Assembly: GCA_030426605.1 (NCBI GenBank)
Contig: JAUHXM010000005.1
Span: 1-64,000 of the forward strand
Source: Phycisphaerae bacterium
GTDB lineage: Bacteria; Planctomycetota; Phycisphaerae; Phycisphaerales; UBA1924
Length of the DNA stretch: 64,000 nucleotides
Reading direction: 5' to 3'
The translations under genes and the position numbers were made by a program. Shown here one piece after another: positions 1-16,563 of the stretch. The notes under the pieces were generated by a model. The model was not told the origin of the DNA. It did no database searches and saw only the letters and a list, made by a program, of their open reading frames with translations. Numbering within the stretch: position 1 is the stretch's first letter; the number at the start of each line of letters is the position of its first letter.

Positions 1-371
1 TCCACCATCGCCCGCAGCGGCGGTTCGGAGAAGAACGCGCGAAGGTGCGCGTGCATGCGCTTGGATTGCTCCAGCGACCCGCCCAGGATGCGGACCTCGA
101 TGCCGTCCTTGAAGACCAGATCGAGCAGCGTGGCGACGGCGGCGAGGAATGTCTTGCCCCCGCCCCGGTTCGCCCACACGACCAGATCGCGCGGCAGCTG
201 CGTCTCCTCGAACGCGTGCCACAAATAATCGAACGGCGACGCGTGCCCCGCGATCAGCGGTCGTGTCGGCACGCTCACCCCGAGATATTCGCGCACGAGC
301 GCGTGCAACGCGTCGCGCGTGCGCGGCCTCGCCAGCGCACGCGGCGTCCCCGACGGATCGATCTCCCCCAC
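1..371 (-). CDS. Phage terminase large subunit-like ATPase, N-terminal part (continues beyond window edge)
   Basis: Reverse-strand reading from GTG at 371: MGEIDPSGTPRALARPRTRDALHALVREYLGVSVPTRPLIAGHASPFDYLWHAFEETQLPRDLVVWANRGGGKTFLAAVATLLDLVFKDGIEVRILGGSLEQSKRMHAHLRAFF; Walker A GGGKT in terminase-type context. Absent from ORF track because it runs off the window. Confidence 0.7.
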   Translation of the reverse strand, partial: MGEIDPSGTPRALARPRTRDALHALVREYLGVSVPTRPLIAGHASPFDYLWHAFEETQLPRDLVVWANRGGGKTFLAAVATLLDLVFKDGIEVRILGGSLEQSKRMHAHLRAFFSEPPLRAMV

Positions 372-383
372 TCCAACCCCCCA

Positions 384-614
384 TCATCCAGGTTTGCAAT
401 CCGAGCCGCGATCCGAATCGCGCTTGATCCCCAACGCCAGCAGCAACGCGCGCGCCCGATCGCGGTCGATCGCCCGCAGCGCCCGGACGACCTCCCGGCG
501 CTGCCCGGCGGTCAGGAAGAACGTCACGGCGCTGGGCAGCGTGTCCGGGTTGGGCGCGGGCATCGGCTTGGTCATGCCGCCCTCCCCGAGGCGTACGCGA
601 CGGCGGGCGTGCAC
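384..614 (-). CDS. Small hypothetical protein between ABC/GNAT gene and terminase-like gene
   Basis: 76-aa ORF overlapping the 3' end of the upstream CDS and ending just before the terminase-like start in the same frame. Confidence 0.5.
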   Translation of the reverse strand: MHARRRVRLGEGGMTKPMPAPNPDTLPSAVTFFLTAGQRREVVRALRAIDRDRARALLLALGIKRDSDRGSDCKPG

Positions 615-1924
615 GCGAGCGACGCCGCCGCGCGGACACGCGTGCCGCCGTCGAGCCCGCGCAGCCCGCGTGCGAGCTTGCGATCACGGGCCCACCGCTC
701 CAGCTCGCGCCGGATCAGGGGGTCCTCCCAGAGGGCCTCCGCGTCCTCGGGCCCGAGGCCCCGCTCGGCGCAGGCGCCCCGCGCATCGAGCGCGTCGAGC
801 CAGCGGGCATCGACGTGCCCCGTCGCGAGGGGGTAGGCGTGCATCCCGGCCCGCTCGAAGAACGGGCTGTACGCGCCCATCTGCGCGACGGCTTCCGTCG
901 CGACGGTCGCGTGCTCGCGCAGGTAGGTCTCGACGAGTCGGCGGGCGATGCCGAGCCCGCGGCTCGCCGGCTCGACGATGACCCGCGAGATGCACCGGAG
1001 ATCGCGGTTGAGGCGTTCGGCGCGCGATCGCTTGTCGCCGGTCGTGAACCGCCCCGGCCACGCCAGGTCGCGCCAGGCACCGTTCAGGGTGGGCATCGAC
1101 GCGACGAGCACGCCCGCGCGTCGTTCGGACCCGTCGGGCAGGGTGCGGACGGCGCGCAGGACCCGTGCGCTTGTCGCCGGGCTCGCCCCCCGGTAGTGGT
1201 GCGGGGCGAGCGCGGCGTGGTCGTCCCGGCCGCCTTGCTCGATCCGGACGCGGACCGGTGACGGGGCGTGCGCGGGCTCGACGACCGCGCCCGCGTTCCC
1301 GACGCGCACGACCGCGTCGGCGCCGGCGAGCGTCGGGAGGTCCTCGTGCGCGCTGGCGGCGACGACGCGGACGCCGCTCACCCGCGCCCAGCGGGAGACG
1401 GTGCGCGCGACGCCCTGGGCCGTCGCCCGGTCGAGGACGGAGGCGAACTCGTCCCACACGAGCCAGCAGCCTGGGGTGGCCCGTCTCATGGCGATCGCGA
1501 GCGAGAGCCTCGCGCGTTCGCCGGCGCTCAGCTCGGCGGGCGTGCGCGGGAGCAGCACCGCGTCGCCCAGCCCCGCCCAGGCGAGGGCGGAGAGCCGCTC
1601 GCGGATCGAGCCGTCGAGGCGGTCGGCGACGGACCGCGCGGTGTCCCGCTCGAGCGACGCGACCGCGGGCGTGTCGGCGAGACGGGCCCCGCGCTCGGCG
1701 AGGCAGCGGCGCAGGCCGCGCAGCAGCGTTGATTTGCCCGAGCCGGAGGGCCCGGTGACGGCGATGAACGGGCTCAGCCCCACCCGATCGAGGACCGCCG
1801 AGGCGTCATCGATCGTCGTGTCCCGTCGCGTGTTTGGGCGCGTGGGCAGAACGCCGAACGGCGCGCACGCGGCGTGCAGGGCCGCCGACATGGGGGCGTC
1901 TGTTGGAACGAGGCGGACGCTCAC
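572..1924 (-). CDS. ABC-type ATPase fused to a GNAT acetyltransferase-like domain (COG2401-like)
   Basis: GPSGSGKSTLLRGL Walker A, ELSAGERARLSLAIAM signature, CWLVWDEFASVLD Walker B; C-terminal VIVEPASRGLGIARRLVETYLREHA GNAT-like acetyl-CoA binding. GTG start at 1924 overlaps upstream TGA (GTGA). Confidence 0.8.
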   Translation of the reverse strand: MSVRLVPTDAPMSAALHAACAPFGVLPTRPNTRRDTTIDDASAVLDRVGLSPFIAVTGPSGSGKSTLLRGLRRCLAERGARLADTPAVASLERDTARSVADRLDGSIRERLSALAWAGLGDAVLLPRTPAELSAGERARLSLAIAMRRATPGCWLVWDEFASVLDRATAQGVARTVSRWARVSGVRVVAASAHEDLPTLAGADAVVRVGNAGAVVEPAHAPSPVRVRIEQGGRDDHAALAPHHYRGASPATSARVLRAVRTLPDGSERRAGVLVASMPTLNGAWRDLAWPGRFTTGDKRSRAERLNRDLRCISRVIVEPASRGLGIARRLVETYLREHATVATEAVAQMGAYSPFFERAGMHAYPLATGHVDARWLDALDARGACAERGLGPEDAEALWEDPLIRRELERWARDRKLARGLRGLDGGTRVRAAASLACTPAVAYASGRAA

Positions 1925-2376
1925 GCCGACACCCGTGGTTCGTTCGCGGCGTTGTAGAGGGCCTCGATGGCTTCTTTGTGGCGTCGCACGGTGTGGTAGG
2001 AGACGCCGAGGCGTTGGGACGCCGCGCGCATGGAGAGGCCTTCGAGGATCGTGAGGTCCGCGACGCGGCGGCGGGTGGGGGTCCACCTGGTTCGGGCGCG
2101 CATCACGAACGCGACGCGGTCGCTCAGGGCCCGATCGACGGCGCGGCGGACGCGTCGGCGGACGGCGCGTGGGTCCTGGCGGGTGAGGTGCGCGATCTCG
2201 ACGGCGGTGCGTCCGTCGCGGAAGACCGACTCGACGAGGGCCCGCTCGGGCGGGGGCAGCCAGCCGGCCCGGTCGAGCACCTGATCGACCCACGCGCCGC
2301 GTCGGCGACGGCGGAGGTCCGCGCCCTCGTCCGGGTCCCACGCGCGATCGAGCCCACTTGATCCACTCCTGCCCAT
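1921..2376 (-). CDS. Small DNA-binding protein with two helix-turn-helix segments (sigma region 4-like)
   Basis: RTAVEIAHLTRQDPRAVRRRVRRAV and GLSMRAASQRLGVSYHTVRRHKEAI; GGAAGGGG Shine-Dalgarno before ATG. Confidence 0.65.
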   Translation of the reverse strand: MGRSGSSGLDRAWDPDEGADLRRRRRGAWVDQVLDRAGWLPPPERALVESVFRDGRTAVEIAHLTRQDPRAVRRRVRRAVDRALSDRVAFVMRARTRWTPTRRRVADLTILEGLSMRAASQRLGVSYHTVRRHKEAIEALYNAANEPRVSA

Positions 2377-2400
2377 CCGTCACCCCTTCCCGAGCATGGC

Positions 2401-2435
2401 ATTCCACAATGGAATACAATCTCACCATTGTATTC
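2401..2435. promoter_or_regulatory. Putative repressor operators: two perfect inverted repeats
   Basis: ATTCCA-CAA-TGGAAT (2401-2415) and GAATACAAT-ctcacc-ATTGTATTC (2412-2435) in AT-rich intergenic DNA between divergent genes. Confidence 0.7.
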
Positions 2436-2456
2436 TTGACTAGAAGACAATTGCAA
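2427..2456 (-). promoter_or_regulatory. Candidate promoter of the divergent HTH/ABC-GNAT/terminase operon
   Basis: Minus strand TTGCAA (2456-2451), 18-nt spacer, TACAAT (2432-2427); the -10 lies in the right arm of the larger inverted repeat. Confidence 0.5.
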
Positions 2457-2464
2457 GGTATATG
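2436..2464 (+). promoter_or_regulatory. Candidate promoter of the CI/LexA-like repressor
   Basis: TTGACT (2436-2441), 17-nt spacer, TATATG (2459-2464). Confidence 0.6.
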
Positions 2465-2470
2465 TTTGGC

Positions 2471-3319
2471 ATGGCATCGAATGAGCGCGCAACCGGGGAT
2501 GATCGAGCCGCGGGCGAGCCCGCCGCGTTGGGCGAACTGATCCGGCGACGCCGACGGGCGCTCGGCTGGACGCTGGCGGAGGCCGCCGAGCGTGTCGGGT
2601 GCCACCGGTCGTACCTGTCGAACCTGGAGCGTGGGCAGCGCGAGAAGCCCAGCGAGGCGATGATCGTGCGGCTCGCGCGTGCGCTGGAGATGGATGAGAA
2701 GACGCTGCGGAGGGCGTCCGAATGGGCGCGGGCGCCTGAGTCGGTCCGGCGGGGCGTCTCGTCGCTGCACGAGGCCGCGCGGGCGACGTCCGCGTTGAGC
2801 GCGCTTCTCCGGCGTGACGGGCTGGACGAGGCGTATCGCTCGGGCGAGCTCGGGCGTGTGCTTGAGCGCTTGCGGGCCGGCGACACGGAGCGTGTGAGCG
2901 CGGCCCTGCCGCACGAGGTCCCCGTGATCAACTCCGTGACGGCGGGGTACCCGCACGATTTCGGGGATCTCGGGTACCCCGCGCGGGTCGCGGACGAGTA
3001 TGTCCGCTGCCCGGATCTGCACGACCCGGACGCGTTCGCGGCGCGCGTGGTGGGCGACTCGATGGAGCCGACGTACGTCGAGGGGGATCTGGTCGTGTTC
3101 AGCCCGATCCGCGACGCGGAGTCGGGCTCGGATTGCTTTGTGCGGCTCGAGCCGGACCACGAGAGCACGTTCAAGCGGGTGTACTTTGAGACGGGGGAGG
3201 CGGGCGAGGAGCTGATCCGGATCCAGCCGATCAACAACCGGTACCCGCCGCGGGTCGTGCCGCGCGATCGGGTCGCGGGGCTGTATCGGGCTGTGAGCCT
3301 GATGCGGCGTGTGCCCTGA
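2471..3319 (+). CDS. CI/LexA-like repressor: XRE HTH plus S24 peptidase domain
   Basis: HTH GWTLAEAAERVGCHRSYLSNLERGQREKPS; VTAGYPHDF possible Ala-Gly cleavage site; VVGDSMEPTYVEGDLVVFSP (Ser) and TFKRVYFE (Lys). Alternative ATG at 2462. Confidence 0.85.
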   Translation: MASNERATGDDRAAGEPAALGELIRRRRRALGWTLAEAAERVGCHRSYLSNLERGQREKPSEAMIVRLARALEMDEKTLRRASEWARAPESVRRGVSSLHEAARATSALSALLRRDGLDEAYRSGELGRVLERLRAGDTERVSAALPHEVPVINSVTAGYPHDFGDLGYPARVADEYVRCPDLHDPDAFAARVVGDSMEPTYVEGDLVVFSPIRDAESGSDCFVRLEPDHESTFKRVYFETGEAGEELIRIQPINNRYPPRVVPRDRVAGLYRAVSLMRRVP

Positions 3320-3484: not shown

Positions 3485-4390
3485 ATGGCGAAGATGTTCT
3501 ACACGGTCGAGGAAGCCGCGGCGAAGCTGGGCATGACTCCCGACGAGGTCCAGGGGCTCGGTGAGTCCGGGCAGTTGCAGGAGTTCCGCGACCGCGACCG
3601 GCTGATGTTCAAGCGTGACCAGGTCGATCTGCTGGCGGGTGACGGCGGCGACGACGATGAGATCGGCGATGAGATCAAGCTCGCCGACTCGGGCGAGCTC
3701 GAGCCCATGAGCCTGTCTTCGTCCGGGTCGGGGTCGGCGTTCAATGACTCGCGTGCCGGTTCCGGGTCGGGCGATACGGGCGTGAGCATCTTTGATCCCG
3801 ACGAGTCGGACGCGGACGCGAACGCGGACACGCTGATCACTGGTTCGCCCGTCGGGATGCCCGACCTGAACGATGCGAGCGCGTCGGGCTCCGGGTTGGC
3901 GCAGCTGTCGCTTGAGGCGGACGACACGAGCCTCGGTTCTGATCTGCTGTCGGACCTCGGGGGCTCGGGCGCCGGTGCGAGCGGCACGGGCATGTCCGCC
4001 GGCTCGGCGGCGCCGGCGGGCGACGCCGGCGCGAGTGGGTTCGGCACGGGGCTGGGGATGGGCGACTCGAACGCGGGCTCGCTGTTCGAGGGCGGGTCGG
4101 CGGAGCCTGATTTCGGCGCGCCCGCCGCGGCGGGGGCGGCGATGGTCGGCGGGATCGCGGCAGAGCCGTACGACGGCGCGTGGTCGGGGATCGCGGCTGG
4201 CGCGGCGCTCGGGGCGGTGCTGTTGCTCGCGGCCACGCTCGGCGTGACGATCCTGGGGTTCGCGGGCGAGGGTGCCGCGGAGCTTCTGGGGGGCGTCGAT
4301 TCGACGATGATCATGATCATCGCGGGCGGCGGGATGGCGGTCGTCGGGCTGTTCGCGGCGGTCGGCTGGTTCATGCTCCGCAAGGGCTGA
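3485..4390 (+). CDS. Membrane protein with N-terminal MerR/excisionase-like HTH and C-terminal transmembrane segments
   Basis: MAKMFYTVEEAAAKLGMTPDEVQGLGESGQLQEFRDRDRLMFKRDQVDLL; Ser/Gly/Asp-rich linker; two C-terminal hydrophobic stretches; GGAGG SD. Confidence 0.7.
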   Translation: MAKMFYTVEEAAAKLGMTPDEVQGLGESGQLQEFRDRDRLMFKRDQVDLLAGDGGDDDEIGDEIKLADSGELEPMSLSSSGSGSAFNDSRAGSGSGDTGVSIFDPDESDADANADTLITGSPVGMPDLNDASASGSGLAQLSLEADDTSLGSDLLSDLGGSGAGASGTGMSAGSAAPAGDAGASGFGTGLGMGDSNAGSLFEGGSAEPDFGAPAAAGAAMVGGIAAEPYDGAWSGIAAGAALGAVLLLAATLGVTILGFAGEGAAELLGGVDSTMIMIIAGGGMAVVGLFAAVGWFMLRKG

Positions 4391-4587
4391 AGCGCCTCAA
4401 CGAAAAATCCGAGCGTGTCGTGTCACCCGTGGGGTGTCGTTGTCTCTTCTCCGGATCCGAGGAGAACGACCACGCACACGATGCGCACCACCAAGGCCTG
4501 CTTGTTGGCGGGGCGGCGTGGGTTTTTAGTGGGGCCTCGTGAGCCCGTCGGGTACCGTGCGCTCCTGACTTGAGAGGAGCCTCCGCC

Positions 4588-5235
4588 ATGAGCACCACCA
4601 CCCGATCGGTCGCCCGCGCTTGCCTCTTTGGCGGCACGCTGTTCGCCGCCGGTCTCTCGGCCGACGCCGCCCCCGAGTTCATCTACGGCCCGTACGCGCA
4701 GGGACGCGTCCTGACCGACCCGGACGGCACCGGGCTCGTCGAGCTCAAGCAGTACACGTTCGGCCCAGCGCCATTCCTGCCGGGGGTCCTGGACTCGTCC
4801 GGCACGACCGCCAGCTTCGGCGCGGGGCTGGGGGAGATGTGGTTCACGCACGATCGTCCGGGCGCGACGCTCAACTACTCCGCGGCGCTTTTTGATGCGT
4901 ACTTCACCGTGTCCGAGCCGGGCACGCTCGAGATCGACTGGGACGCGGGCGGGTGGTTCGACATCGCCCTCATGCTCGACGACGGCAACGTTGTCTTCAG
5001 CCTGGACTTCTCGGGCGCCGGGTCCGAGGTCGTCGCCGTCGTGCCCGGGCATCAGTACCGCGTCTTTCTGGGCACGTACGGCTGGGACCCAGGGGGCAGC
5101 TCGTGGGGGCGTGTGCGGCTGGTGGGCGACTCGGGCCCCACGGGGTGCAACGCCGCGGACATCAACGGCGACGGCGTTCTCAACTTTGACGACATCGATG
5201 CTTTCGTCGATGGATTTCTTGGCGGATGCGAGTGA
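4588..5235 (+). CDS. Secreted GC-type dockerin domain protein (tandem copy 1)
   Basis: Signal peptide-like N-terminus ACLFGGTLFAAGLSADAA; C-terminus GCNAADINGDGVLNFDDIDAFVDGFLGGCE. Confidence 0.85.
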   Translation: MSTTTRSVARACLFGGTLFAAGLSADAAPEFIYGPYAQGRVLTDPDGTGLVELKQYTFGPAPFLPGVLDSSGTTASFGAGLGEMWFTHDRPGATLNYSAALFDAYFTVSEPGTLEIDWDAGGWFDIALMLDDGNVVFSLDFSGAGSEVVAVVPGHQYRVFLGTYGWDPGGSSWGRVRLVGDSGPTGCNAADINGDGVLNFDDIDAFVDGFLGGCE

Positions 5236-5279
5236 GGCACCCCGGGTTTCAACGCTCTTTCTTCCGGAAGGAGCACGCC

Positions 5280-5915
5280 ATGACCACCCGTGCCAACACC
5301 GCCTGTCTGTTCGGAGGGGCCCTGCTCGCCGCGGGCATCGCAACAAGCGACGCGAACGCCGACGGCTTCGCGTTCGCGCTCACCTCGGGCGTGATCTCCG
5401 GCGACCGCGCCGTGGGCAACGACCTGAGTCTCCAGCCTTCTTCGAACACCATCCCGGGATTCGCGGTCGCCGCGTACGGCGTCGGCGACTTCTACGGCAG
5501 CACGCAGGCGACCACGCACGAGCTCTCGTTCGTGCACGAACGCGGCGCATCGGGCACGTTCGTCGAGTCTTACGTGGGGGTCGGTGCGTACGCGTACGTC
5601 CTGACGCAGAGCACGCTCAACATCGCGTGGGAGTTCGGCGCGTGGGACACCACGACCTGCGTGGTGCTCGACGCGACGAACAACGCCACCGTGTTCGACG
5701 CGGGGCTGGCCAGCTCGGGGGAGACCTCGGTGGTCCTTGAGCCAGGGGTGAAATACCTGCTGCTCGCCTCGACGCGCGGCGCGGCGGCGGGAGGGGATGC
5801 CTTCGGGCGGTTCACGTTCAACGAAACCTGCCCCGCGGACATCAACGGCGACGGCGTTCTGAACTTCGACGACATCGACGCTTTCGTCAACAGCTTCCTC
5901 GGTGGGTGCCCTTGA
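5280..5915 (+). CDS. Secreted GC-type dockerin domain protein (tandem copy 2)
   Basis: MTTRANTACLFGGALLAAGIATSDANA; C-terminus TCPADINGDGVLNFDDIDAFVNSFLGGCP. Confidence 0.85.
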   Translation: MTTRANTACLFGGALLAAGIATSDANADGFAFALTSGVISGDRAVGNDLSLQPSSNTIPGFAVAAYGVGDFYGSTQATTHELSFVHERGASGTFVESYVGVGAYAYVLTQSTLNIAWEFGAWDTTTCVVLDATNNATVFDAGLASSGETSVVLEPGVKYLLLASTRGAAAGGDAFGRFTFNETCPADINGDGVLNFDDIDAFVNSFLGGCP

Positions 5916-5960
5916 TCGACGGGCTCGGTTCTGGTCCACTGGGCCCGGAGGGGACCGCCC

Positions 5961-6590
5961 ATGACCGCACCACGCTCAGCGCACCGAACGTGCCTCTTCG
6001 GCGGGACGCTGCTCGCCGCGGGCATCGCGGCGAACTCCGCGCACGCCCAGTCGTTCGCGCACGAGTCGTCGGACTACGCCCTGTTCGCGTCGCCGATCTT
6101 CTTCGGGAACGACACCTCGGGCTCGCTCTTCGGGTTCGGGAGCATCGACCGGTCCATCGCGGACTGGGACGGACAAGCGGTCTCCACGACCGGCGAGATC
6201 TCGGTCTCGCAGAGTCTGGGGACGTCGGGCACGATCACGAGCTCGGGGGCCTATATGAAGACCGTGACGTACGGTCTCAACGGGTGTGCTGCGCAGCTCG
6301 TGTGGGACTTCGGGCCGTGGCCGAACGCGGTCCTGAGCGTCACCGACCTCGACACCGCGACCACCGTGTTTGTCGTTGACGAGGTCACGCCCACCGGGTC
6401 GCAGGTCATCCCGCTGACCGAGGGCGTGCGGTACGAGATCATCGCGTCCATCTCCGGCGCCGCACCCAGCGGCGAATCGTTCGCGGGCGCGTGGGTCTAC
6501 CAACCGTGCCCGGCGGACCTGAACGCCGACGGCGTGCTCAACGTGGACGACATCGACGCCTTCGTCGCCGCGTTCCTCGGCGGGTGCTAG
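5961..6590 (+). CDS. Secreted GC-type dockerin domain protein (tandem copy 3)
   Basis: MTAPRSAHRTCLFGGTLLAAGIAANSAHA; C-terminus PCPADLNADGVLNVDDIDAFVAAFLGGC. Confidence 0.85.
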   Translation: MTAPRSAHRTCLFGGTLLAAGIAANSAHAQSFAHESSDYALFASPIFFGNDTSGSLFGFGSIDRSIADWDGQAVSTTGEISVSQSLGTSGTITSSGAYMKTVTYGLNGCAAQLVWDFGPWPNAVLSVTDLDTATTVFVVDEVTPTGSQVIPLTEGVRYEIIASISGAAPSGESFAGAWVYQPCPADLNADGVLNVDDIDAFVAAFLGGC

Positions 6591-6616
6591 CCGCGGCTGG
6601 AGTGAAAGGCGAAGCC

Positions 6617-7255
6617 ATGCGAAACGGACGACACATCCGCGCCCTGTTCGGGGGCGCTTTGTTCTGCGCGGGCATGACGCCCGGCGCGCAGGCCCAGAAC
6701 TTCGGGCACATGCGCGCGCGAGCGGACATGCAGGCCGAACTCGTGATCGGCTACACGTTTGTGTACCACCAGGACATTGGGGGCGTGCTCGGGCTGGGGT
6801 CCGTAAGCTACGAAATGGCCGCGTGGGTGGGGGAGATCGTCGCCGACCCCGAGCGGATCGGGGTCGCGCAGTCGCTTCCCAGCACGAGCACCGCGTTCGC
6901 GTTCGCGGGCGTTTCGGTCGCTTCCAACGTGTATGCCTTGTCGGACATGACTGTCCGCGTCGAGTGGGACTTTGCCGGGTGGACCGGCGACGCCTATGTC
7001 CTGAATATCACCCAGGGGACGACCCCGTTCACGGACCATGTCTCGGGGCCCGTCGGTACCGAGACGTTCGATCTCGCCAAGGGCGACTACTGCGTGTTCG
7101 TGGGCGTCCTTCAGGGATCCGCCGGCGGAGACGACGGGTTTATCAACTTCACGATCCAAAACGAGCCCGACTGCCCGGCGGACCTCGACGGCAACGGCGT
7201 GCTGAACTTCGACGACATCGATCTGTTTGTGGCCGGTTTCCTCGAGGGGTGCTAG
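6617..7255 (+). CDS. Secreted GC-type dockerin domain protein (tandem copy 4)
   Basis: MRNGRHIRALFGGALFCAGMTPGAQA; C-terminus DCPADLDGNGVLNFDDIDLFVAGFLEGC. Confidence 0.85.
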   Translation: MRNGRHIRALFGGALFCAGMTPGAQAQNFGHMRARADMQAELVIGYTFVYHQDIGGVLGLGSVSYEMAAWVGEIVADPERIGVAQSLPSTSTAFAFAGVSVASNVYALSDMTVRVEWDFAGWTGDAYVLNITQGTTPFTDHVSGPVGTETFDLAKGDYCVFVGVLQGSAGGDDGFINFTIQNEPDCPADLDGNGVLNFDDIDLFVAGFLEGC

Positions 7256-7278
7256 GTCGTGATTGACAGATCGAGTCC

Positions 7279-7310
7279 GTGCCACTGACCCGCCTTCGGG
7301 TTCGTGGCAC
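7279..7310. repeat. Palindromic repeat family A, copy 1 (possible terminator)
   Basis: GTGCCACTGACCCGCCTTCGGGTTCGTGGCAC hairpin; shares GTGCCACTGACCCG with 36484-36564. Confidence 0.65.
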
Positions 7311-7344
7311 GAAAAACCGACGGTCCCGATGCGTCGAACAGGTG

Positions 7345-7929
7345 CTAGCCCTTCTTCGGCGCCTTGACCGTCTTCGCCAGGAGCTTGAGCGCCGTGCGCA
7401 GCCCGGACCCGCCGGGCCCGGCGAACCGGTCGCTGAGCGTCGTCAGGATCGTGAGCACCTCCTCGACGTCGTCGAGGCGTTGGGTGAGCGCTTTGATCTC
7501 TTTGGCGTCGCCCTTGCCCGCCTCGGGGGTGAGCTCTCGGATCTCGCCGAGGCTCTCGAGGAGGGGCTCGATCTCGCGTTTCATGCGCTCGCGCGCGATC
7601 AGGCGGAACATCGCCCAGACGTCCTGCTCGGCCTGGAAGTAGTCCTTCCGGTCGCCGCGCTTCCGCACGCGGGTGACGACGCCCCAGTCCATGAGTGAGC
7701 GGAGGGTCATCGAGGCGTTGCCGCGCGAGATGCTGAGGCGCTCCATGATGTCGTCGGCGTTCATGGGCTCGCCCGTGACGAAGAGGAGCGCGTGGACCTC
7801 GGCCATGGTGCGCGAGATGCCCCACTCGCTGGCCATGCGTGACCAGGACTCGACGAACTGGTCGTGCGCCGCGGCGAGCTGGTCCGCCGCGCTCGCGGCC
7901 CGCTTCGTGCTTGGTTTCCTGGGGGGCAC
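7345..7929 (-). CDS. GbsR/MarR-family transcriptional regulator
   Basis: MARDxGISRTMAEVHALLFVTGEPMNADDIMERLSISRGNASMTLRSLMDWGVV-type winged HTH (here ASEWGISRTMAEV...); GTG start at 7929. Confidence 0.75.
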   Translation of the reverse strand: MPPRKPSTKRAASAADQLAAAHDQFVESWSRMASEWGISRTMAEVHALLFVTGEPMNADDIMERLSISRGNASMTLRSLMDWGVVTRVRKRGDRKDYFQAEQDVWAMFRLIARERMKREIEPLLESLGEIRELTPEAGKGDAKEIKALTQRLDDVEEVLTILTTLSDRFAGPGGSGLRTALKLLAKTVKAPKKG

Positions 7930-7949
7930 GGGCAACTGTACGCGCCGCG

Positions 7950-8897
7950 TCAGAGCAGTACGTCCGCGACGCCCGCGACGCCCAGGGCGATGCTGACCAC
8001 ACCGTTGAGGGTGAAGAACGCCATGGGGATGCCATCGCGCCCGCGCCGCGCGAGGACGATGTGCTCCATCACGAGCGCCCCGAGCACGATTGTGAACCCG
8101 ACGCCGAAGATCCATCCGAACCGGGGCTCGACGAACCACGCGACGCCGAGCGCGACGAGCGCGAGGGCGTGGAAGCCGCGCGACACCCACGCGGCGCCGC
8201 GCCAGCCGAACCGGGCGGGCATGCTGTTGAGCCCGGCGTCGCGGTCGAAGTCGAGGTCCTGCAGGGCGTAGATGACGTCGAAGCCGGCGACCCAGAACAA
8301 GACCATCGCGGCGAGCCACCAGACCGATCTTCCAGCCTCAGCGTGCACGAGCGCTCCGGGGTTGACCGCAATCACGGCGGCGAGCGGGCTCGCGGCGAGG
8401 GCGCCACCCAGAAAGACATGGCACAGCCACGTGAACCGCTTGGTGAACGAGTACAGAGCGATCCACGCCAGGACCGGAAGGCTCAGCGCGAGCGGCCACC
8501 AGTTGCCATCAAGAACCCCGAACCCCGCCGCCGCCGCGCAGAACCCGATCGCGCTGCCCGCGAGCATGAGGGCCCCGTCTCGCCGAGACAGCGCTCCGCG
8601 GGCGAACGCCCGCCCGGCGGTCCTCGGGTTCCCCGCGTCGAACCGCGCGTCGGCGACGCGGTTGACGATCATCGCCCACGTGCGCGCGAACACCATGCAC
8701 ACGACGACGAGCGCGAGCATGACCGCCGCGTCGCGCGCGCCGATCTTGTTCTCACCCGGCAGGACCATCACCGCCGCGAGCAGCGCGAAGGGCAGGGCGA
8801 ACACCGAGTGCGCCAGTTTGATGTCCGCGAGCGCAACGAAAAGCCGGCCCAGGGCGGGTGCCCGGGCCGGCTCGTTGGTCTGATCGGTGCTCGTCAC
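7950..8897 (-). CDS. UbiA-family prenyltransferase (quinone biosynthesis-like)
   Basis: IVNRVADARFDAGNPRTAGRAFARG and VIYALQDLDFDRDAGLNSMP Asp-rich motifs; multiple TM segments. Confidence 0.85.
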   Translation of the reverse strand: MTSTDQTNEPARAPALGRLFVALADIKLAHSVFALPFALLAAVMVLPGENKIGARDAAVMLALVVVCMVFARTWAMIVNRVADARFDAGNPRTAGRAFARGALSRRDGALMLAGSAIGFCAAAAGFGVLDGNWWPLALSLPVLAWIALYSFTKRFTWLCHVFLGGALAASPLAAVIAVNPGALVHAEAGRSVWWLAAMVLFWVAGFDVIYALQDLDFDRDAGLNSMPARFGWRGAAWVSRGFHALALVALGVAWFVEPRFGWIFGVGFTIVLGALVMEHIVLARRGRDGIPMAFFTLNGVVSIALGVAGVADVLL

Positions 8898-8922
8898 CCC
8901 CGACGCTAGGCGGGGTGGGCGA

Positions 8923-11400
8923 TCACGGGCACCCGGCGAGGAAGGCCGCGACGAAGGCGTCGATGTCGTCGATGTTGATCGAGCCGGACCCGTCCACGTC
9001 CGCCGCGAGGTCGCCCGCGAGGAACGCGGCGACGAAGGCGTCGATGTCGTCCACGTTCAGGATGCCGTCGCCAGTGAAGTCCGCCTCGTTGCACCCGGTC
9101 GCCGCGGCGATCGAGCCGACGTAGACGTTGTCCACGAGCCACGAGTCGCCCGCCTCGTTGCCCTGCGCCGTGATGCGGAGCTTGAGGAAGGCGTGGATGA
9201 GCGAGACGTCCATCTCCATCTGGATGAGCGAGAACGAGGCGTCGGGGTTGCCGTCGGAGACGAGCTCGCCCACGGTCTGCCAGACGCCGCCGGCGTCCTG
9301 CGCTTCGACGAGCAGCGACTCGCCCGCGTCGGCGCCCTCGTCCTTGGCGAGCACGGAGATGTACGCCGAGCCCGCCGAGAGGGTCAGCGCGTTGATCGCC
9401 TGGGTCTCGAGGGTCTCGGTGTTGCTCACGCGGGCGGCGTACAGGCCGGTGCCCGCGTCGTCCGTCGTGCGGCTGCCGTCGAACGTCTCCCACATGCGTG
9501 TCATCTCGACCGGGCCCTCGAAGGTGCGGCGGACGGGGGCGAGCAGCGCGCCCGGGTCGGTCACGCGGAAGTCGTCGAGGAACCAGCGGTCGTCCGCCTC
9601 GTCGCCGTCGCCCGTGAACCGGATGCGGAGGTCGTTTGAGACCGCCCCCGCCGGGATGCGCGCGCCCTGCCAGACGAACTCGCCGTGGTCCACGCCGTCG
9701 GAGACGATGTCGATGAGGGGCTGCCAGACCGAGCCGTCGAAGTACTCGACGCCCAGCGACTCGCCCGCCTCCACGCCCGCGTGCTGCACGGCGACGGCGA
9801 GCCCGAGGTCGGTGGACGCGGCGTCGGCGCCGAGCCGGATCGTTGAGACCGACTGGTCGTGGTCGATGTTCATCGCGTTGGACCCGCTGGGCTCGTTCGT
9901 GCCGTCGCCGTTGACGACGGCGCCGTTGATGTCGATCCAGAGCGTGCTGGCGAGTGCGCCCGACTCGAATTCCTCGAACACGGGCAGCGGGGTGTAGAAG
10001 TCGCCCGTCATCGCGGCGACGACGGCCGCCTCGGCGTTCAGGCGCCCCCAGCCGTTGAAGTCGTCGAACCCGGGTGTGCCGATGTCCGTCGCGGTCTCGT
10101 AGAGGATGCCGCGCAGGATCGCGGGCGTGATGTCCGGGTTCGCCTCGACGACGAGCGACGCGACGCCGTTCGCGAGCGGCGCTGCGGCGCTCGTGCCCCC
10201 GAACCACGTGTACCCGCCCGTGCGGCTCGTCGAGCGCACGCTCACGCCGTGCGCCATGACATCGAGCTGCGGCCCGTAGTTGGAGAACCCGACCCGCTGC
10301 CCGTTCGTGCCCAACGCGCCGACGACGACGATGTTGTCGTCCACCGGGTCGCCCAGCTGCTGCCCGTCGTTGCCCGACGAGTAGAAGACCTGCGCGCCCC
10401 GGTCCTCGAGCTGGTCACCGATGTTGTTGCCCGGCGCGTCCACGCCCGAGTAGCTGACGCTGACGGTCGTCGCGCCGTTGTCCGCGGCCCAGCGGGCGCC
10501 GCGCTTGATGTCGCTCTGCGCCGCGCCGCCGCCCGACGCGTTGGAGACCTTCGCGTGGAGGATGCCGGCGTTCCACGAGCACCCGGCGACGCCGATCGAG
10601 TTGTTCCCGATCGCCGCGGCGCACCCGGTGGCGCCGGAGCCGTGCCCGTTGTTGTCGTTCACGTCGCCGCCCTCGGCGATCGTCAGGCGGTCCACGGCGT
10701 TGTACCCGTCCACGATCGACGCCTGCAGGTCGGGGTGGTCGAGGTCGATGCCCGTGTCGCACACGCCGAGGATGGTCGAGGCGCTGCCGGTGACGAAGTC
10801 CCACGCGCCGACGGTGTTCAGGTGGTTGGCGCCGTGGTGGTACTGGTTACCGAACTGCGAATCGTTCGGGAACGTGTCCGCCGGGTAGCAGATCCAGTCG
10901 GGCGCGACCCAGTCGTAATCGCCGGTCGCCATGAGCGCCTCGCCGAACTGTTCTTCGGTCATCCCCGCGGGGACGGTCACGCGGTACTCCTGCACGTCCT
11001 CGAACGACTTGGCGATCGAGGGCGCAATCCGGTCGAGCGCCCGATCGAGGCGCGCGTCGATCAGGCCGGGCAGCGCGGACGCCGGCTCGGGCGCGCCGCG
11101 CAGCAGGCCCGTCGCCCGCGCCTGGGCCCGCTCGCTCGCGATCTGCTGGGCAATCTGCCGGCGGTCCTTCAGCGCCACCTGCAGGAAGCCCGAACGCTCC
11201 ACCTTGCCCGGGCGCTCGGCGCGGGTGAAGTCGAGCCCGATGGGCTGGGCCGCCGCCATCGCGGCGCGGTCGCCCGCGGTGAGGTCCAGCGCCCCGTCGA
11301 GGGCCGCGGCGTGGTTCGCCGTGGGGCCCGCCATCGCCTGACCCGCGGCCAGCACCAGCGTCATGCACGTTGTCCGGATGATCATCGTCGTTGTCCTCAT
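8923..11400 (-). CDS. Secreted subtilisin-like S8 serine protease with double GC-type dockerin
   Basis: Triad: ILGVCDTGIDLDHPD, NDNNGHGSGATG, GGTSAAAPLANG; C-terminus CNEADFTGDGILNVDDIDAFVAAFLAGDLAADVDGSGSINIDDIDAFVAAFLAGCP. Confidence 0.9.
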   Translation of the reverse strand: MRTTTMIIRTTCMTLVLAAGQAMAGPTANHAAALDGALDLTAGDRAAMAAAQPIGLDFTRAERPGKVERSGFLQVALKDRRQIAQQIASERAQARATGLLRGAPEPASALPGLIDARLDRALDRIAPSIAKSFEDVQEYRVTVPAGMTEEQFGEALMATGDYDWVAPDWICYPADTFPNDSQFGNQYHHGANHLNTVGAWDFVTGSASTILGVCDTGIDLDHPDLQASIVDGYNAVDRLTIAEGGDVNDNNGHGSGATGCAAAIGNNSIGVAGCSWNAGILHAKVSNASGGGAAQSDIKRGARWAADNGATTVSVSYSGVDAPGNNIGDQLEDRGAQVFYSSGNDGQQLGDPVDDNIVVVGALGTNGQRVGFSNYGPQLDVMAHGVSVRSTSRTGGYTWFGGTSAAAPLANGVASLVVEANPDITPAILRGILYETATDIGTPGFDDFNGWGRLNAEAAVVAAMTGDFYTPLPVFEEFESGALASTLWIDINGAVVNGDGTNEPSGSNAMNIDHDQSVSTIRLGADAASTDLGLAVAVQHAGVEAGESLGVEYFDGSVWQPLIDIVSDGVDHGEFVWQGARIPAGAVSNDLRIRFTGDGDEADDRWFLDDFRVTDPGALLAPVRRTFEGPVEMTRMWETFDGSRTTDDAGTGLYAARVSNTETLETQAINALTLSAGSAYISVLAKDEGADAGESLLVEAQDAGGVWQTVGELVSDGNPDASFSLIQMEMDVSLIHAFLKLRITAQGNEAGDSWLVDNVYVGSIAAATGCNEADFTGDGILNVDDIDAFVAAFLAGDLAADVDGSGSINIDDIDAFVAAFLAGCP

Positions 11401-11553
11401 CTCGTGTCCCGCAGCGTCGCACGCCGGGCCTGACCCGACCGCGGAGGACCCCCCCACCACGCCGCTGTTGATCTCTGTGAAACCACGCCCGAACGGGCGT
11501 GGAACCTCCGATACGCGGGGGAACCCCCGCCTGTTCCCCGCTCAGAGCGCCAT

Positions 11554-13956
11554 TCAGGGCGTCTGCAGCGAGCCGATGTAGAGCCCCGCGAAGAGCCCCA
11601 GGTCGTCGGGCGTGAACAGCCCGTCGCCCGACAGGTCCGCCCGCGGGTCCGTCGCCAGGTACGCCGCGATGAAGGCGTCGATGTCGTCGTACGAGACGAT
11701 CCCGTCGTCCGTGAAGTCCACGAGGCTCGACACGACGCGGACCGTCAACCCGGGCATGAGCCGAACGGGCCGCCCGCCGTCGAGCACGTCGATCACGATC
11801 TCCTGGTCCATCCCGACCGCGCCCGGGTCCGCCGAGGCGCGGTAGTTGATCTCGAAGAGCCCGCCGCCCAGGTCATCGACCGCCTCGAACGCGACGACCG
11901 AGCCATCGCCGGTCGTCACGTCGAACGCGATGGGCCCGACCACGGGCCCGCCAGTCCGGTCGTAGAGCCGCACGCGCGCCGTGTCGATGGCGCCGGACGC
12001 GATGTACCGCCGGCCCGTGAGCGTGGAGCGCACGGCGTCGGGGCGCCCGACCAGATCGTTCGCCCATTCGTCGAACTGCTCCTGGAGGATGAAGACGGGG
12101 TCGTCCGCGTTCACGCCGCGCCGGCCCGTGTTGAGCTCCATGTAGTGGTTGCCCGCGCCGCACCCGAGCCCGCCGCGCAGGACGCCGTTCACGCTCGCGA
12201 CCGCGAGCACGCCGTTCTGCGAGTTCCCGCCCGTGATGAGCTCGGGGACGCCATCGCCCGCGAGGTCCGCGAGGGTCATCGCGCGGGCACCGCTCGCGTC
12301 GGTCCGCTGCAGCTCGCCGACGATCCACCCGCCCGCGCCGTCGTTGGTGTACGTCTCGAACGACCCGCCGCTGCCCAGGGCGGTGACGTCGGTCAGCCCG
12401 TCGCCGTCGATGTCCGCTGGGACGGCGTCGATCCCGAACCCGCCGCCGATGAAGAGGTCGGTCCGCACGGGCGTGCCCGTGTCGGTCGTGAAGATCGATG
12501 CCTGCCGCGACTGATCGCACGCGACGACGAGGTCGGCCAGCGCGTCGGCGTCCAGGTGCGTCGCGCGCACCGTGACCGGCTCGTCGGGCGTCGCCAGCGT
12601 GCCCGAGAGCGCGAACGCGCCCGCCCCGTCGTTTGAGTAGAGCGCGATCTCGTCGGCGGTGCTCAGGGCGACCGCCAGATCCAGCCCCGGGTTCGCGTCC
12701 AGATCCGCCGCGACGATGCCCTCCCCGCGTGCCCCCAGCGCCATGGTGACCGGCGCGTCAACGCCGGCGCCGTTCGAGAGCAGCACGCCCAGCTCCTGCC
12801 CGGACGAACACGTAAAGGCGATGTCGAGCCCGTTGACGCCATCGAGGTCCGCGACCTCGACGCCCGTCGCGCCGCCCGCGACGTCGAACGCCTGCGAGAC
12901 CGCGAAGGAAAGCACCCCGCCCCCGTCGGTGCCCTGCAGCACCGTGATTCTCGACGGGTTCTGGCTCGCGACGACGAGGTCGGTGACGCCGTCGCCCGTC
13001 ACGTCGCCCGCGTCGATGCCGCGCAACGCGTTCGCGCCGACCTCGACAAACTGCGCCGGGTCGAGCGTGGCGAAGGCGCTGCCCGGCGTCGTCGTACTCG
13101 GGTAGATCTGCACCTGGGTCCCGTTGAACGGTGTCACGGCGAGGTCGTCGCCGAACCGCCCGTCGAGATCGAAGCTCGCGAAGCCCGCCGGGCGGTTGAT
13201 GCCGCGGTAGACGCTCGGGCAGATGTCCGTATCGCCGGCGCGCGAGATGAGCATGTACCCCACGTGCGCGCTCTTGAACGGCGCGGGCGGCGGGATCGTG
13301 TCGCACCCCGTCGGGTCCCCGATCGAGCACGAGCACCGCCCGTCCCCGCCCCACAACCGCGCCGCCTCCATGGACGCCATCAGCTTCGCGGCCAGATCGC
13401 CCGGCGTCGTGATGATCGCCTCGACCGCCATGTCCACGGGCTGCGGGCCCAGCAGGATGTTGCCCTGCACGGCGTAGACCAGGTCGTCTTCAGGGCCCGG
13501 GCGCCCGCGCTCGATGCGGCCCGTGATCCCGCCCTTCCACTGCGCCGCGCCGGTGCCCGAGAACGTCGCCGCGTTCCCGAAGACATCGACGATCCCGTAC
13601 TGCCGCCCCTGGTGCCCGGCGTCGAAGGCGCTGAGCTCCGCGAGCACGTCGTCGGGCGCGAGCCCCTCGAGCAGGCGGTCGCGCGCAAAGACCTTGTTCT
13701 GCCCCGTCTGATCGACGACCGACTGCGCGGTGACGGCGCCGACGCCCGTGACAATCACCGCCGTGTTCTCGCGCAGGTCGATGCCCGAGACGCACGTCGC
13801 CGACGCGAGCGCGATCTCGCCGGTCCGTGTGTCCGCGATGAGGATGGACCAGGTCGCGTCGGCCTGCCCCGCCATCGCCGCGACGAGCGCCGCCGCGCCC
13901 GCACGGACCGTCCGCCGGCACGCACACCCCCGCCACGCGGCATCACGAATCGTCAT
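11554..13956 (-). CDS. Secreted DUF1028 domain protein with VCBS/FG-GAP-like repeats and C-terminal dockerin-like pair
   Basis: N-terminus WSILIADTRTGEIALASATCVSGIDL...GAVTAQS; repeated DLDGNP.LDLAVA units; C-terminal VDFTDDGIVSYDDIDAFIAAYLATDPRADLSGDGLFTPDDLGLFAGLYIG. Confidence 0.75.
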   Translation of the reverse strand: MTIRDAAWRGCACRRTVRAGAAALVAAMAGQADATWSILIADTRTGEIALASATCVSGIDLRENTAVIVTGVGAVTAQSVVDQTGQNKVFARDRLLEGLAPDDVLAELSAFDAGHQGRQYGIVDVFGNAATFSGTGAAQWKGGITGRIERGRPGPEDDLVYAVQGNILLGPQPVDMAVEAIITTPGDLAAKLMASMEAARLWGGDGRCSCSIGDPTGCDTIPPPAPFKSAHVGYMLISRAGDTDICPSVYRGINRPAGFASFDLDGRFGDDLAVTPFNGTQVQIYPSTTTPGSAFATLDPAQFVEVGANALRGIDAGDVTGDGVTDLVVASQNPSRITVLQGTDGGGVLSFAVSQAFDVAGGATGVEVADLDGVNGLDIAFTCSSGQELGVLLSNGAGVDAPVTMALGARGEGIVAADLDANPGLDLAVALSTADEIALYSNDGAGAFALSGTLATPDEPVTVRATHLDADALADLVVACDQSRQASIFTTDTGTPVRTDLFIGGGFGIDAVPADIDGDGLTDVTALGSGGSFETYTNDGAGGWIVGELQRTDASGARAMTLADLAGDGVPELITGGNSQNGVLAVASVNGVLRGGLGCGAGNHYMELNTGRRGVNADDPVFILQEQFDEWANDLVGRPDAVRSTLTGRRYIASGAIDTARVRLYDRTGGPVVGPIAFDVTTGDGSVVAFEAVDDLGGGLFEINYRASADPGAVGMDQEIVIDVLDGGRPVRLMPGLTVRVVSSLVDFTDDGIVSYDDIDAFIAAYLATDPRADLSGDGLFTPDDLGLFAGLYIGSLQTP

Positions 13957-14050
13957 GGCCGATCACCCTTTCACCACCCGAACGGCGGCATGCCCCCTGC
14001 GCCCCCACCATACCGCAGCACCAGCCCGATCCCAAGCCGGATTCCAGCCG

Positions 14051-15886
14051 TCAGAGCCCGCGCCACATCTGCCGCGTCGCCCCCTCAAACTCCCACGTGC
14101 AATCGTGGTACTCGATGTCCGCCGTGCCGCTCGAGTCGTCCCAGAAGAACGTGAAATTCTCATCCCCCCCGGCGTAGAACGCGTAAAAGTCGCACCCGTG
14201 GAAACGCAGGTCCACGACGCCGCGCACGCGGGCCGCACGCGCCCGATCGTCGCCGGGCGGGTCGGCGCTGGGCACGGGCAGGCGCAGCTTCACCGAGCAG
14301 TCGTGCACGTCCGCGTCCACCCCGGTGAGGTAGAAGAACGCGCCCTTGTTCACGTCCGGGTACGTCCGGTACGTGATGTCAACATTCACCCCGCTGAGCG
14401 GGACGTCGTTGCTGCTCAGCGGCAGGCACGGCGTGCCGAACGCCGCGTCGAAGTTCCCGGGGCTTGTGACCGACCCGTCCGCCTTCACCGTGCCCCACCC
14501 GTCGATGTCCATCACGACATCGCCGCAGATCTGCGCGTAGTGCTCGCCCTCACGCATCGAGCTCACGCCGACGTACCGCGACACGCCCGTGAACCCCGTC
14601 GTGCGAACCCGGAACCCGGCGTTGATCACCGACCCCACCGGCGGCGACCCGCGGACCACCGACGAATGGCTGAACAGCAGCGTCCCGCGCGTCCAGTTCG
14701 GGCCGTGCGCGCCGCTGATGTACGTGTTGTGCAGGCTCAGGTAATCGCAATCCCCCCAGTCGGCGTAGTTCACCTCGTGGGTAAAGCCGGCCGCGTCCGC
14801 GCGCCCGCCCGCCATCACGTTCCGCTCGCTCAGGCAGACCGTGCCGTCCGTGCCCGCGCCCGCGGTCCCGACGATGTGCTTGAACGCGTCGGCCATGAAG
14901 CAATCGCGCACGACATACGCCGCGTCGCCCGCGACGCACTTCACGACGTACGACTCGTACGCCTGATCGCCGCCGTTGAGGTGCAGCCCGTCGATGACCG
15001 CGCCGTCCGCTTCGATGGTGACGATGTTGTTCGTCGCGTCGCAGACCTGGAGATCCATAAAGCCCGGGAAACGCCCGCCGCGCGCGTACACGTGCAGGAC
15101 CCCGTCGTGCATGTAGAACGCGTTGGTCGAGTCCCTGAAGATAATGTGCGCGAACGTTTCGGCATCGCCGCAGTCGAGGAACGCCTCGTCGCCGTAGCGT
15201 GCCGAATCGGGGTCGTCCGTCGGCGTGCCGCTCGCGAGGCGTATCGCCGCGGGCCCGGACCACGGCGTCGTGAAGTACACCCGCCCTGTCACGGGCTCGA
15301 CCGCCGGCTGCCACACGACGACGAGGTCGTCCCACTTGTGCAGCGTCGGGCGCCGGCCCGTGCCCAGCGGGTCCCACCCGCGCAGGTGCGTGTAGGGCGT
15401 GATGATGTCCAGGCTCGCCGCGTCGGGGATGCGGACCTCGATCCGCGCGTCCAGCCAGATCTCACACCCCCCCGGATGCAGCGTCTGGATGCCCGCGATC
15501 AGCCCCACCATCTGGGCACCACCCAATTCAGGGTCTTCCGAGAGCACCAGCGGGTCCGACGCCGACCCGTCGCCCCACGCCCATGGCCCTTGGGTGATGT
15601 GGACCTCGGGCAGCATCGGGTTGTCCAGGCGGGTGTACGAACGGATCGCCGCCGCGACCCGCTCGCACTGGCGGAGATACGCCCTCGAATGCGGGCCCGG
15701 ATCGACGGTGATGAGCCCCAGATCCGCGATCCGCGGGAAATCGGGCGCGACGCCCTCCGGCGGGGTCAGGTCCCCCGACGACACCCCGGGCGCATCCCCC
15801 CCGCGGGTCGGGAGCGGACCGACACCCCAGCCCAAGACCGGGCCGCTCGGCAGCGACAGCACGATGGCAATCCACAACGCCAGCAT
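14051..15886 (-). CDS. Secreted right-handed beta-helix-like protein
   Basis: Signal-like MLALWIAIVLSLPSGPVLGWG; repeated short units (NNIVTIEADGAVIDGLHLNGG, AAYVVRDCFMADAFKHIVGT); GGAGGAGG SD. Confidence 0.65.
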   Translation of the reverse strand: MLALWIAIVLSLPSGPVLGWGVGPLPTRGGDAPGVSSGDLTPPEGVAPDFPRIADLGLITVDPGPHSRAYLRQCERVAAAIRSYTRLDNPMLPEVHITQGPWAWGDGSASDPLVLSEDPELGGAQMVGLIAGIQTLHPGGCEIWLDARIEVRIPDAASLDIITPYTHLRGWDPLGTGRRPTLHKWDDLVVVWQPAVEPVTGRVYFTTPWSGPAAIRLASGTPTDDPDSARYGDEAFLDCGDAETFAHIIFRDSTNAFYMHDGVLHVYARGGRFPGFMDLQVCDATNNIVTIEADGAVIDGLHLNGGDQAYESYVVKCVAGDAAYVVRDCFMADAFKHIVGTAGAGTDGTVCLSERNVMAGGRADAAGFTHEVNYADWGDCDYLSLHNTYISGAHGPNWTRGTLLFSHSSVVRGSPPVGSVINAGFRVRTTGFTGVSRYVGVSSMREGEHYAQICGDVVMDIDGWGTVKADGSVTSPGNFDAAFGTPCLPLSSNDVPLSGVNVDITYRTYPDVNKGAFFYLTGVDADVHDCSVKLRLPVPSADPPGDDRARAARVRGVVDLRFHGCDFYAFYAGGDENFTFFWDDSSGTADIEYHDCTWEFEGATRQMWRGL

Positions 15887-16131
15887 CGCCCCTCCTCCGG
15901 GACGTCCCCACGAACCCGAATCTACCCCCAATGCCCCCCGATCCCAAGCAATCTCCGGACGCCGACGCCAGACGTTCCAGGGAACGACCGAGAAGCCCAA
16001 CCCGTGATCCTCGCGGGAGATCCGGGCGTGGTTGACGACCCCGGGGAGGGGCGTACCATTCGCCCCCGCTCGGTCTGTTGCCCGGGCGGTTTTTTGCCGA
16101 TGGACGCCCCCCGGGGCGCCCCCCGGATGCC

Positions 16132-16203
16132 GCCGCTGTAGCTCAGTGGTAGAGCGCACCCTTGGTAAGGGTGAGGTCGAGGGTTCAAGTCCCTCCAGCG
16201 GCT
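16132..16203 (+). tRNA. trnT: tRNA-Thr (GGT)
   Basis: Acceptor GCCGCTG/CAGCGGC; anticodon stem CACCC-TTGGTAA-GGGTG; T-arm GAGGGTTCAAGTCCCTC. Confidence 0.95.
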
Positions 16204-16563
16204 TGTCGGTTCGCCCCCATGTTGCGCGCGGTTCGGCGCGGTATGCCGCGCTTCTCGCGGGGGACGGACCTAGAGTTCCCGCCCGTCCGCCAGATCGCAG
16301 GCGGGCTCTGTGCCGACCGCGAGGGACCGCGGCGAGGGCGGGAGCAAACGGACGGACCAACACCGAGCATTCGGCGCTCGGGCGCACGCCCGGCCCGCAG
16401 GCTCCGGGCCCGCAGCCGCGGGCGACAACCAGTTTCCAAACCGGCTCGCAGAGCCGGACGCATCCGGGTGGGTGGCTCGCGTCGGGCCCCGAGTAGCGCC
16501 CGACGAGTCAGCTTCTGTCAGACACACCGTCGTACGAAAGACCCAATCAAGAGGTAGAGACCA

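Follow-up and report, generated by a model that had tools for sequence, protein, structure and literature searches.

The gene transfer agents (GTAs) that have been well studied are mostly alphaproteobacterial, with isolated cases elsewhere; besides the RcGTA type of Rhodobacter and Caulobacter, others are known in Bartonella, Brachyspira, Desulfovibrio and Methanococcus. We know of no described GTA with an ABC-GNAT/ParB module and an S24 repressor, and a literature search for such a GTA found none. GTA operons have been described as dispersed (PMC12946183). How widespread GTAs are, and whether the distant ones are outliers, are questions raised in a recent review (PMC11841831). Acylation of DNA bases has been predicted for GNAT systems coupled to an ABC ATPase (Iyer et al. 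2013, cited by PMC7824862). A ParB-ABC-GNAT-TerL module is present in SSU5/Cyrano, RHEph10 and Gordonia phages, and the ABC-GNAT homologue of phage Cyrano is annotated as MK0520.

The window analysed here is a stretch of 64,000 nucleotides whose position 1 is the end of contig JAUHXM010000005.1 of a Phycisphaerae draft genome. Its first five genes (Table 1) are arranged as an S24 repressor diverging from an operon of the order HTH, ABC-GNAT, (ParB remnant) and TerL, and they resemble the portion of a domesticated virus that serves DNA packaging and control, long kept by the whole class. We read this cassette, with a probability of roughly 0.8, as the locus for packaging and control in a Phycisphaerae GTA that is inherited vertically and is not of the Rhodobacter type; such a GTA has probably not been described before.

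Like described GTAs, the system has phage-derived TerL, portal and capsid genes that are inherited vertically and spread over separate chromosomal loci. In contrast to them, the host belongs to the Planctomycetota, the capsid is SU10-type and the portal SPP1-type. Portal family PF04860 and capsid family PF05065, our initial choice of GTA markers, both detect the Caulobacter control; they occurred in 5 and 3 of 22 genomes, respectively, and in neither case in the window's own, so the system is not RcGTA-like by these markers. The cassette is best read as using the ParB/ABC/GNAT/TerL module known from phages like SSU5 and RHEph10. In RHEph10 the families follow one another as they do here, ending in TerL and then the portal. 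In these phages, however, the module lies within a complete phage or phage-plasmid, whereas here it is chromosomal and without virion genes, the ABC and GNAT parts are fused and ParB is only a remnant. The coupling of an ABC ATPase to a GNAT domain that characterises the predicted DNA-acylation systems (COG2401/MK0520) is present here, but on the chromosome and linked to TerL. The major capsid protein (MCP) shares its family (PF17236, phrog_1328) with SU10-type phages and related elements, which are viruses or virus-like contigs, whereas here the capsid locus is chromosomal, class-wide and without an adjoining TerL. Among these relatives, the MCP of L208 is 57% identical, and one phage-like contig (L142) carries TerL, MCP and c1 homologues together, which counts in favour of the GTA reading. 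Encapsulins share a host-kept HK97-fold shell protein and differ from the present system, which has a portal, a scaffold-like gene and a terminase.

Table 1. Features of the cassette at the beginning of the window
Feature	Position	Strand	Basis
TerL, N-terminal 123 residues, cut by contig end	3..371	-	Homology and Walker A
ParB-like C-terminal remnant, 63 aa	384..575	-	Alignment to ParB model
ABC ATPase fused to GNAT acyltransferase domain	572..1924	-	Motifs; ABC_tran over cutoff
Double-HTH protein, first gene of the operon	1921..2376	-	Sigma70_r4_2 over cutoff
Probable repressor operator, inverted repeat GAATACAAT-N6-ATTGTATTC	2412..2435	.	Repeat in divergent promoter region
S24-family autocleavable repressor, HTH and peptidase	2462..3319	+	Peptidase_S24 and HTH_31 over cutoff

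The first-pass annotation had described four tightly coupled minus-strand genes diverging from a CI/LexA-like repressor, and all five ORFs were found in place. The GTGA overlap at 1921-1924 between the double-HTH and ABC-GNAT genes was likewise borne out, as was the TerL start (GTG, 371) 12 nt past the stop of the small ORF. The overlap reported at 572-614 does exist as a stop/start overlap, but it is best read as ATGA at 572-575, with the small ORF at 384-575; the longer frame (384-614) starts at an upstream GTG. Contig C44 carries the remainder of a TerL, and its overlap of about 54 nt with the window contig shows differences, so C44 is not a clean continuation of that contig.

The TerL of the window is 79% identical to residues 1-123 of a full TerL from the same genus, carries the Walker A motif WANRGGGKTF and matches the family model at 2e-49. 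By itself, the partial protein gave a weak PHROG match in the profile search. The earlier call of a terminase-like ATPase was upheld by a full-length homologue from the same genus (P0006, 512 aa), which is a clear TerL (phrog_2, 5.6e-16) and falls below threshold in Pfam. Both TerL catalytic centres are invariant among the aligned homologues, and a PDB sequence search with TerL returned no meaningful match. The ABC-GNAT protein possesses a Walker A (GPSGSGKST), an ABC signature (LSAGE) and a GNAT motif (RGLGIA), and it matches PHROG 293/886. The GNAT domain is sub-threshold in the fusion and exceeds the cutoff in an unfused homologue (L091). Since it aligns to positions 146-194 of a 199-position ParB model built from relatives (2e-6 in the window scan), the small ORF is a C-terminal remnant of a ParB-like protein. 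The double-HTH protein contains two sigma-70 region-4-like domains, with Sigma70_r4_2 over the cutoff in two stretches.

In the S24 repressor, the Ala-Gly site, Ser and Lys are conserved in all eight aligned homologues. A perfect 9-6-9 inverted repeat within the divergent promoter region is the probable operator. In a regulon search allowing up to 3 mismatches, the window copy was the only one in the genome. This confinement of the operator to the packaging locus was counted against the GTA reading and concerns joint induction of the two loci.

TerL was found in 115 of 150 relatives and strong ABC-GNAT matches in 106, of which 105 also have TerL; outside this set, all 10 genomes examined from other parts of the class Phycisphaerae have TerL. 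The cassette arrangement recurs throughout the order, in tens of genera, and is therefore not due to chance. The first-pass annotation had staked its proposal on conserved linkage between the ABC-GNAT and terminase-like genes, and a neighbourhood survey agreed, with TerL in 28 of 29 ABC-GNAT loci and the double-HTH gene in 25. It had also regarded an ordinary complete prophage beside the cassette as contrary evidence, and none was found in the relatives read, where the surroundings are ordinary chromosomal genes. Its remark that no portal or capsid gene lies on this side cannot be judged from a window that begins at a contig end; in the loci of relatives read, neither adjoins the cassette. The TerL, MCP and portal trees agree with the host families, requiring no more than the minimum of changes. 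Values of dN/dS are about 0.1-0.3 in most pairs, indicating purifying selection (for the GNAT genes of G000/G001 the ratio was computed over 188 codons, and an automatic 51-codon row was left out). Vertical inheritance of the cassette with the host lineage is strongly supported.

The head genes lie elsewhere. An SU10-type MCP was detected in 107 of the 150 relatives, in 29 of 30 near-complete genomes and, in the window's own genome, on contig C161. That genome thus holds TerL (as fragments), portal and capsid genes, and no tail genes were identified in it, which was counted against the GTA reading. An SPP1-type portal (PF05133) and a scaffold-like gene precede the MCP in every locus read. The locus contains further conserved genes and, after the capsid genes, a small membrane-type protein and a lipoprotein. 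As a guess, the last two are candidates for a role in lysis or release. In G287 the capsid locus also holds a GNAT gene, which we count in favour of the GTA reading. Among the 150 relatives, the presence of MCP goes with that of TerL (both in 102, TerL alone in 13, MCP alone in 5, neither in 30; p=2e-16). The 13 genomes with TerL and no MCP, a group that includes the contiguous G109, G011 and G110, and a split MCP gene in about 10 genomes were counted against the GTA reading. Examples of the split gene are G037 and G115, and the element concerned measures 11 kb. The two loci are 11–982 kb apart, in several cases more than 600 kb, so the gene set cannot travel in one virus head; this one-particle limit applies directly to the distant cases and by inference to the others. 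A search with a two-sequence model of viral portals, run without a positive control, found nothing.

Of the options offered by the first-pass annotation, a GTA-like module and a domesticated packaging machine are strongly supported by the vertical cassette, its chromosomal surroundings and the unlinked, co-occurring portal/scaffold/capsid locus, and a defence island found no support. A phage satellite or capsid-less island, which would use its own terminase to borrow the heads of a helper phage, was suggested by packaging genes without capsid genes under a repressor in the window. A PICI-like satellite has a patchy, mobile distribution; here it is vertical and class-wide with host-like trees, and portal and capsid genes co-inherited with the cassette are present in the same genome, so we give this option very little weight. 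No integrase was noted in our reading of the ORFs. The phage-like layout of repressor and operator, the phage-like gene order and the viral relatives of TerL and MCP could likewise mean that the cassette and capsid locus are ordinary or decaying prophage pieces left by phages inserted at different times. In an ordinary prophage, however, the genes for packaging, head and tail lie side by side within a single element, and here the capsid genes occupy a separate locus. Class-wide vertical trees, purifying selection, invariant catalytic residues and the joint presence or absence of both loci also speak against this reading. Save for weak TerL/ABC matches in G114, neither the cassette models nor the capsid models match the few prophage loci with PF04860/PF05065 in these genomes. 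The prophage explanation is highly improbable and already contradicted.

A domesticated packaging and capsid system that does not deliver DNA would be GTA-like up to packaging and could serve damage-triggered lysis, DNA disposal or repair, or phage interference. Conservation and purifying selection suit any role useful to the host, the SOS-type repressor suggests a damage response, and a lone TerL gene adjoins dnaA in some of the other class members. Yet portal, scaffold-like and capsid genes are retained with TerL across the class, and in some families the capsid locus encodes a LamG-domain protein that resembles a component for surface binding; we consider this role unlikely. The unlinked loci might also suggest an encapsulin-like shell beside an unrelated nuclease/ATPase, with no DNA packaging, as HK97-fold shells are known to have been domesticated as encapsulins (PMC8346489). 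The portal and scaffold-like genes before the capsid gene, the joint loss of TerL and MCP, a GNAT gene within the capsid locus of G287 and the phage-like contig with both homologues make this the least credible of the alternatives.

Under the GTA reading, the S24 repressor would keep the operon off by acting on the inverted repeat. DNA damage would trigger its self-cleavage and so switch on the HTH regulator, ABC-GNAT, ParB or its remnant, and TerL. The second locus would supply the portal, scaffold-like protein, SU10-type MCP, further conserved genes and the membrane and lipoprotein genes, and TerL would dock on that portal and fill the heads with chromosomal DNA. Such induction would end in particle formation, random packaging, lysis and delivery. 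Probably, the ABC-GNAT protein (together with ParB and a TerS-like protein in genomes that have them) handles or marks DNA and so brings it to the terminase. In the window's lineage the front half of ParB has been lost, as has TerS, which would favour non-specific packaging. A bolder and more doubtful proposal is a planctomycete-wide GTA in which ABC-GNAT (+ParB) marking replaces the small terminase under an SOS-type repressor, with a serine-recombinase element parasitising one site in the capsid gene.

If the GTA reading is correct, a class-wide Planctomycetota GTA with different head genes would represent an independent and very old domestication. With so many genera carrying the cassette, a relative in culture can be expected. 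The uncharacterised ABC-GNAT (COG2401-like) family would also gain a context, being tied to terminase in both phages and chromosomes. An AlphaFold model of the ABC-GNAT protein from three sequences reached a pLDDT of 55 and was not carried into a fold search. Matches to this protein also occur in Xanthomonas, where the one locus read (L009) proved to be an ordinary ABC transporter neighbourhood.

The cassette lies at the edge of its contig, C138, of which the window covers bases 1-64000, in a draft genome of 3.29 Mb in 165 contigs where window position 1 is the contig end. The gene content that the first-pass annotation described for it was fully recovered in the window (see the table), and the tight coupling was likewise borne out, with a GTGA overlap, an ATGA overlap and then a 12-nt gap. 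Fragments of the terminase large subunit (TerL) at the window edge and at the end of C44, another contig of the same genome, share coded residues 106-123, and their sequences are not identical over the overlap of ~54 nt. This mismatch may come from mixed strains, from a binning error or from a second copy; the broad picture is safe in spite of it because of the synteny with G001, a genome of the same genus.

Features of the cassette, the capsid locus and neighbouring or inserted sequences
Feature	Sequence	Position	Strand	Remark
TerL, first 123 residues	Window	3-371	-	Operon member, at contig end
63-aa ORF	Window	384-575	-	Matches C-terminal quarter of ParB model only
ABC ATPase fused to GNAT domain	Window	572-1924	-	Operon member
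Double-HTH protein	Window	1921-2376	-	Operon member
Inverted repeat, 9-6-9	Window	2412-2435		Perfect; in divergent promoter region
S24-type repressor	Window	2462-3319	+	Divergent from minus-strand operon
Secreted-type paralogues	Window	4570-6590	+	Tandem
TerL fragment	Window	1-60		Compared with C44
TerL fragment	L072 (C44 end)	1-60		Compared with window
Major capsid protein (MCP)	C161 (same genome)	47139-48272		PF17236 match
Insert splitting MCP gene	L197 (G037)	5597-16701
Insert splitting MCP gene	L198 (G115)	4303-15784
Insert splitting MCP gene	L200 (G086)	4377-14781

The cassette forms a chromosomal locus that is conserved among relatives. Of 150 relatives, 106 gave strong ABC-GNAT matches (E<1e-12) and 115 gave TerL matches; counts taken from the two search tables gave 105 genomes with both, 10 with TerL only, 1 with ABC-GNAT only and 34 with neither (p about 1e-23). 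The expected linkage of the ABC-GNAT gene to a terminase in other genomes held, as TerL was present in 28 of 29 ABC-GNAT loci; of the 29, an HTH gene was present in 25, a divergent repressor in 23, a ParB-type remnant in 20 and a TerS-like gene in 11. In other families of the same order, ABC and GNAT are separate genes, and two extra genes precede TerL, encoding a full ParB-like protein and a ~150-aa protein, the latter called TerS-like because its homologue also precedes TerL in the viral contig L106. Outside the order, TerL was detected in all 10 sampled genomes of the class at 1e-142 or better, including several members of one family (f9: L134, L138 and L139) where it adjoins dnaA without other cassette genes; matches in the rest of the phylum were mostly weak or partial.

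Comparable gene orders occur in phages: ParB, ABC, GNAT, DNA-binding, TerL and portal in RHEph10; ParB, ParB, ABC and GNAT in SSU5 and Cyrano; and ParB, ABC, tRNA-methyltransferase and TerL in Gordonia phage BiggityBass, with the portal a few genes further. HMMs built from the planctomycete genes recover these proteins of the phages. The cassette is therefore a phage arrangement, here without virion genes, and no portal or capsid genes were seen adjoining it in the chromosomal loci read. ABC-coupled GNATs are predicted to acylate DNA bases, as related in PMC7824862 from Iyer et al. 2013. In G114, a complete genome without the proposed gene transfer agent (GTA), a prophage-like locus (L146) with a PF05065 capsid and a PF04860 portal was observed, in which the cassette model also matches an ABC gene close to the TerL of that locus.

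The usual markers, PF04860 for portal and PF05065 for capsid, exceeded cutoff in few genomes only, in prophage-like loci. Of 30 near-complete genomes, 29 carry the SU10-type major capsid family PF17236, the window genome among them, and the E-values range from 1e-73 to 1e-91. The 11 capsid loci read have a constant core of portal, scaffold-like protein, capsid protein and a ~220-aa protein, followed by variable genes, among them those for a LamG-domain protein (some families), a ~90-aa protein containing a single hydrophobic segment and a ~180-aa putative lipoprotein. PF05133 exceeded cutoff in both portals tested, one of them from the window genome.

The cassette and the capsid locus belong together. 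Of the same 150 relatives, 102 carry both TerL and MCP and 30 carry neither; 13 have TerL alone and 5 have MCP alone (p=2e-16). All five genomes that have MCP alone are draft assemblies in 130-310 contigs; the TerL-only cases include the contiguous genomes G109, G011 and G110, which are perhaps decayed systems. The distance between the two loci ranges from 11 to 982 kb, with a median of 62 kb in 25 genomes. The TerL, MCP and portal trees, all built from the same 25 genomes, each require the minimum possible number of host-family label changes. Additionally, the GNAT gene of one genome (G287) sits within the capsid locus, and TerL, MCP and the 220-aa protein all have homologues on a single phage-like contig (L142). 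Family f30 belongs to another planctomycete class (L219, L224 and L218; genomes G170 and G194); there a fused ABC-GNAT gene overlaps TerL, which is divergent from it, and G170 encodes the same SU10-type MCP on a different contig; the proposed system may extend past the class Phycisphaerae. Between related genome pairs, dN/dS was about 0.1-0.3 for TerL and in most comparisons of ABC, GNAT, HTH, portal and MCP, with 0.34 for the GNAT half between G000 and G001.

The cassette terminase is real. P0006, the full-length homologue from G001, combines an N-terminal ATPase with a C-terminal nuclease (PHROG 2, 5.6e-16); its Pfam match to TerL is sub-threshold. Across 20 genomes there is no variation in the Walker A region, the Walker B residues DE, an STxH motif, four cysteines in an insertion, or D347, D401, D487 and D491, which are putative nuclease acids; these residues are assigned to catalytic roles from what is generally known of TerL proteins.

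The Ala-Gly cleavage site and Ser/Lys dyad of the repressor are kept in all eight aligned homologues. Since the inverted repeat in the divergent promoter region has no other copy in the window genome at up to 3 mismatches, and AT-rich inverted repeats occupy the same place in several relatives, the repressor probably controls the cassette directly. A candidate for switching on the capsid locus is the HTH protein. Of the proposed GTA mechanism, only the genetic parts are shown; the predicted dynamic steps would be these: DNA damage would trigger repressor cleavage, the packaging cassette would be expressed, TerL would dock on the portal encoded by the capsid locus, and heads would be filled with chromosomal DNA before lysis and delivery. 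In known GTA small terminases, the DNA-binding domain is reported to be undetectable (PMC11841831); the window lineage, which has lost TerS and the front half of ParB, fits this. No described planctomycete GTA was found in the open-access literature searched.

A contig filed as viral in IMG/VR (L214, 3300031673_016560) carries portal, scaffold, MCP, c1, c4, c5 and c12 in the proposed GTA order and is probably a planctomycete GTA locus. In three genomes, an insert of 10-12 kb interrupts the MCP gene at about the same codon (~residue 57-73) and carries a large serine recombinase beside one junction plus other conserved ORFs; similar split matches occur in about ten of 107 genomes. This looks like a site-specific element parasitising, silencing or switching the proposed GTA. 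Furthermore, at least two of the secreted-type paralogues in the window end in a dockerin-like repeat (CPADxNxDGVLNxDDIDAFV).
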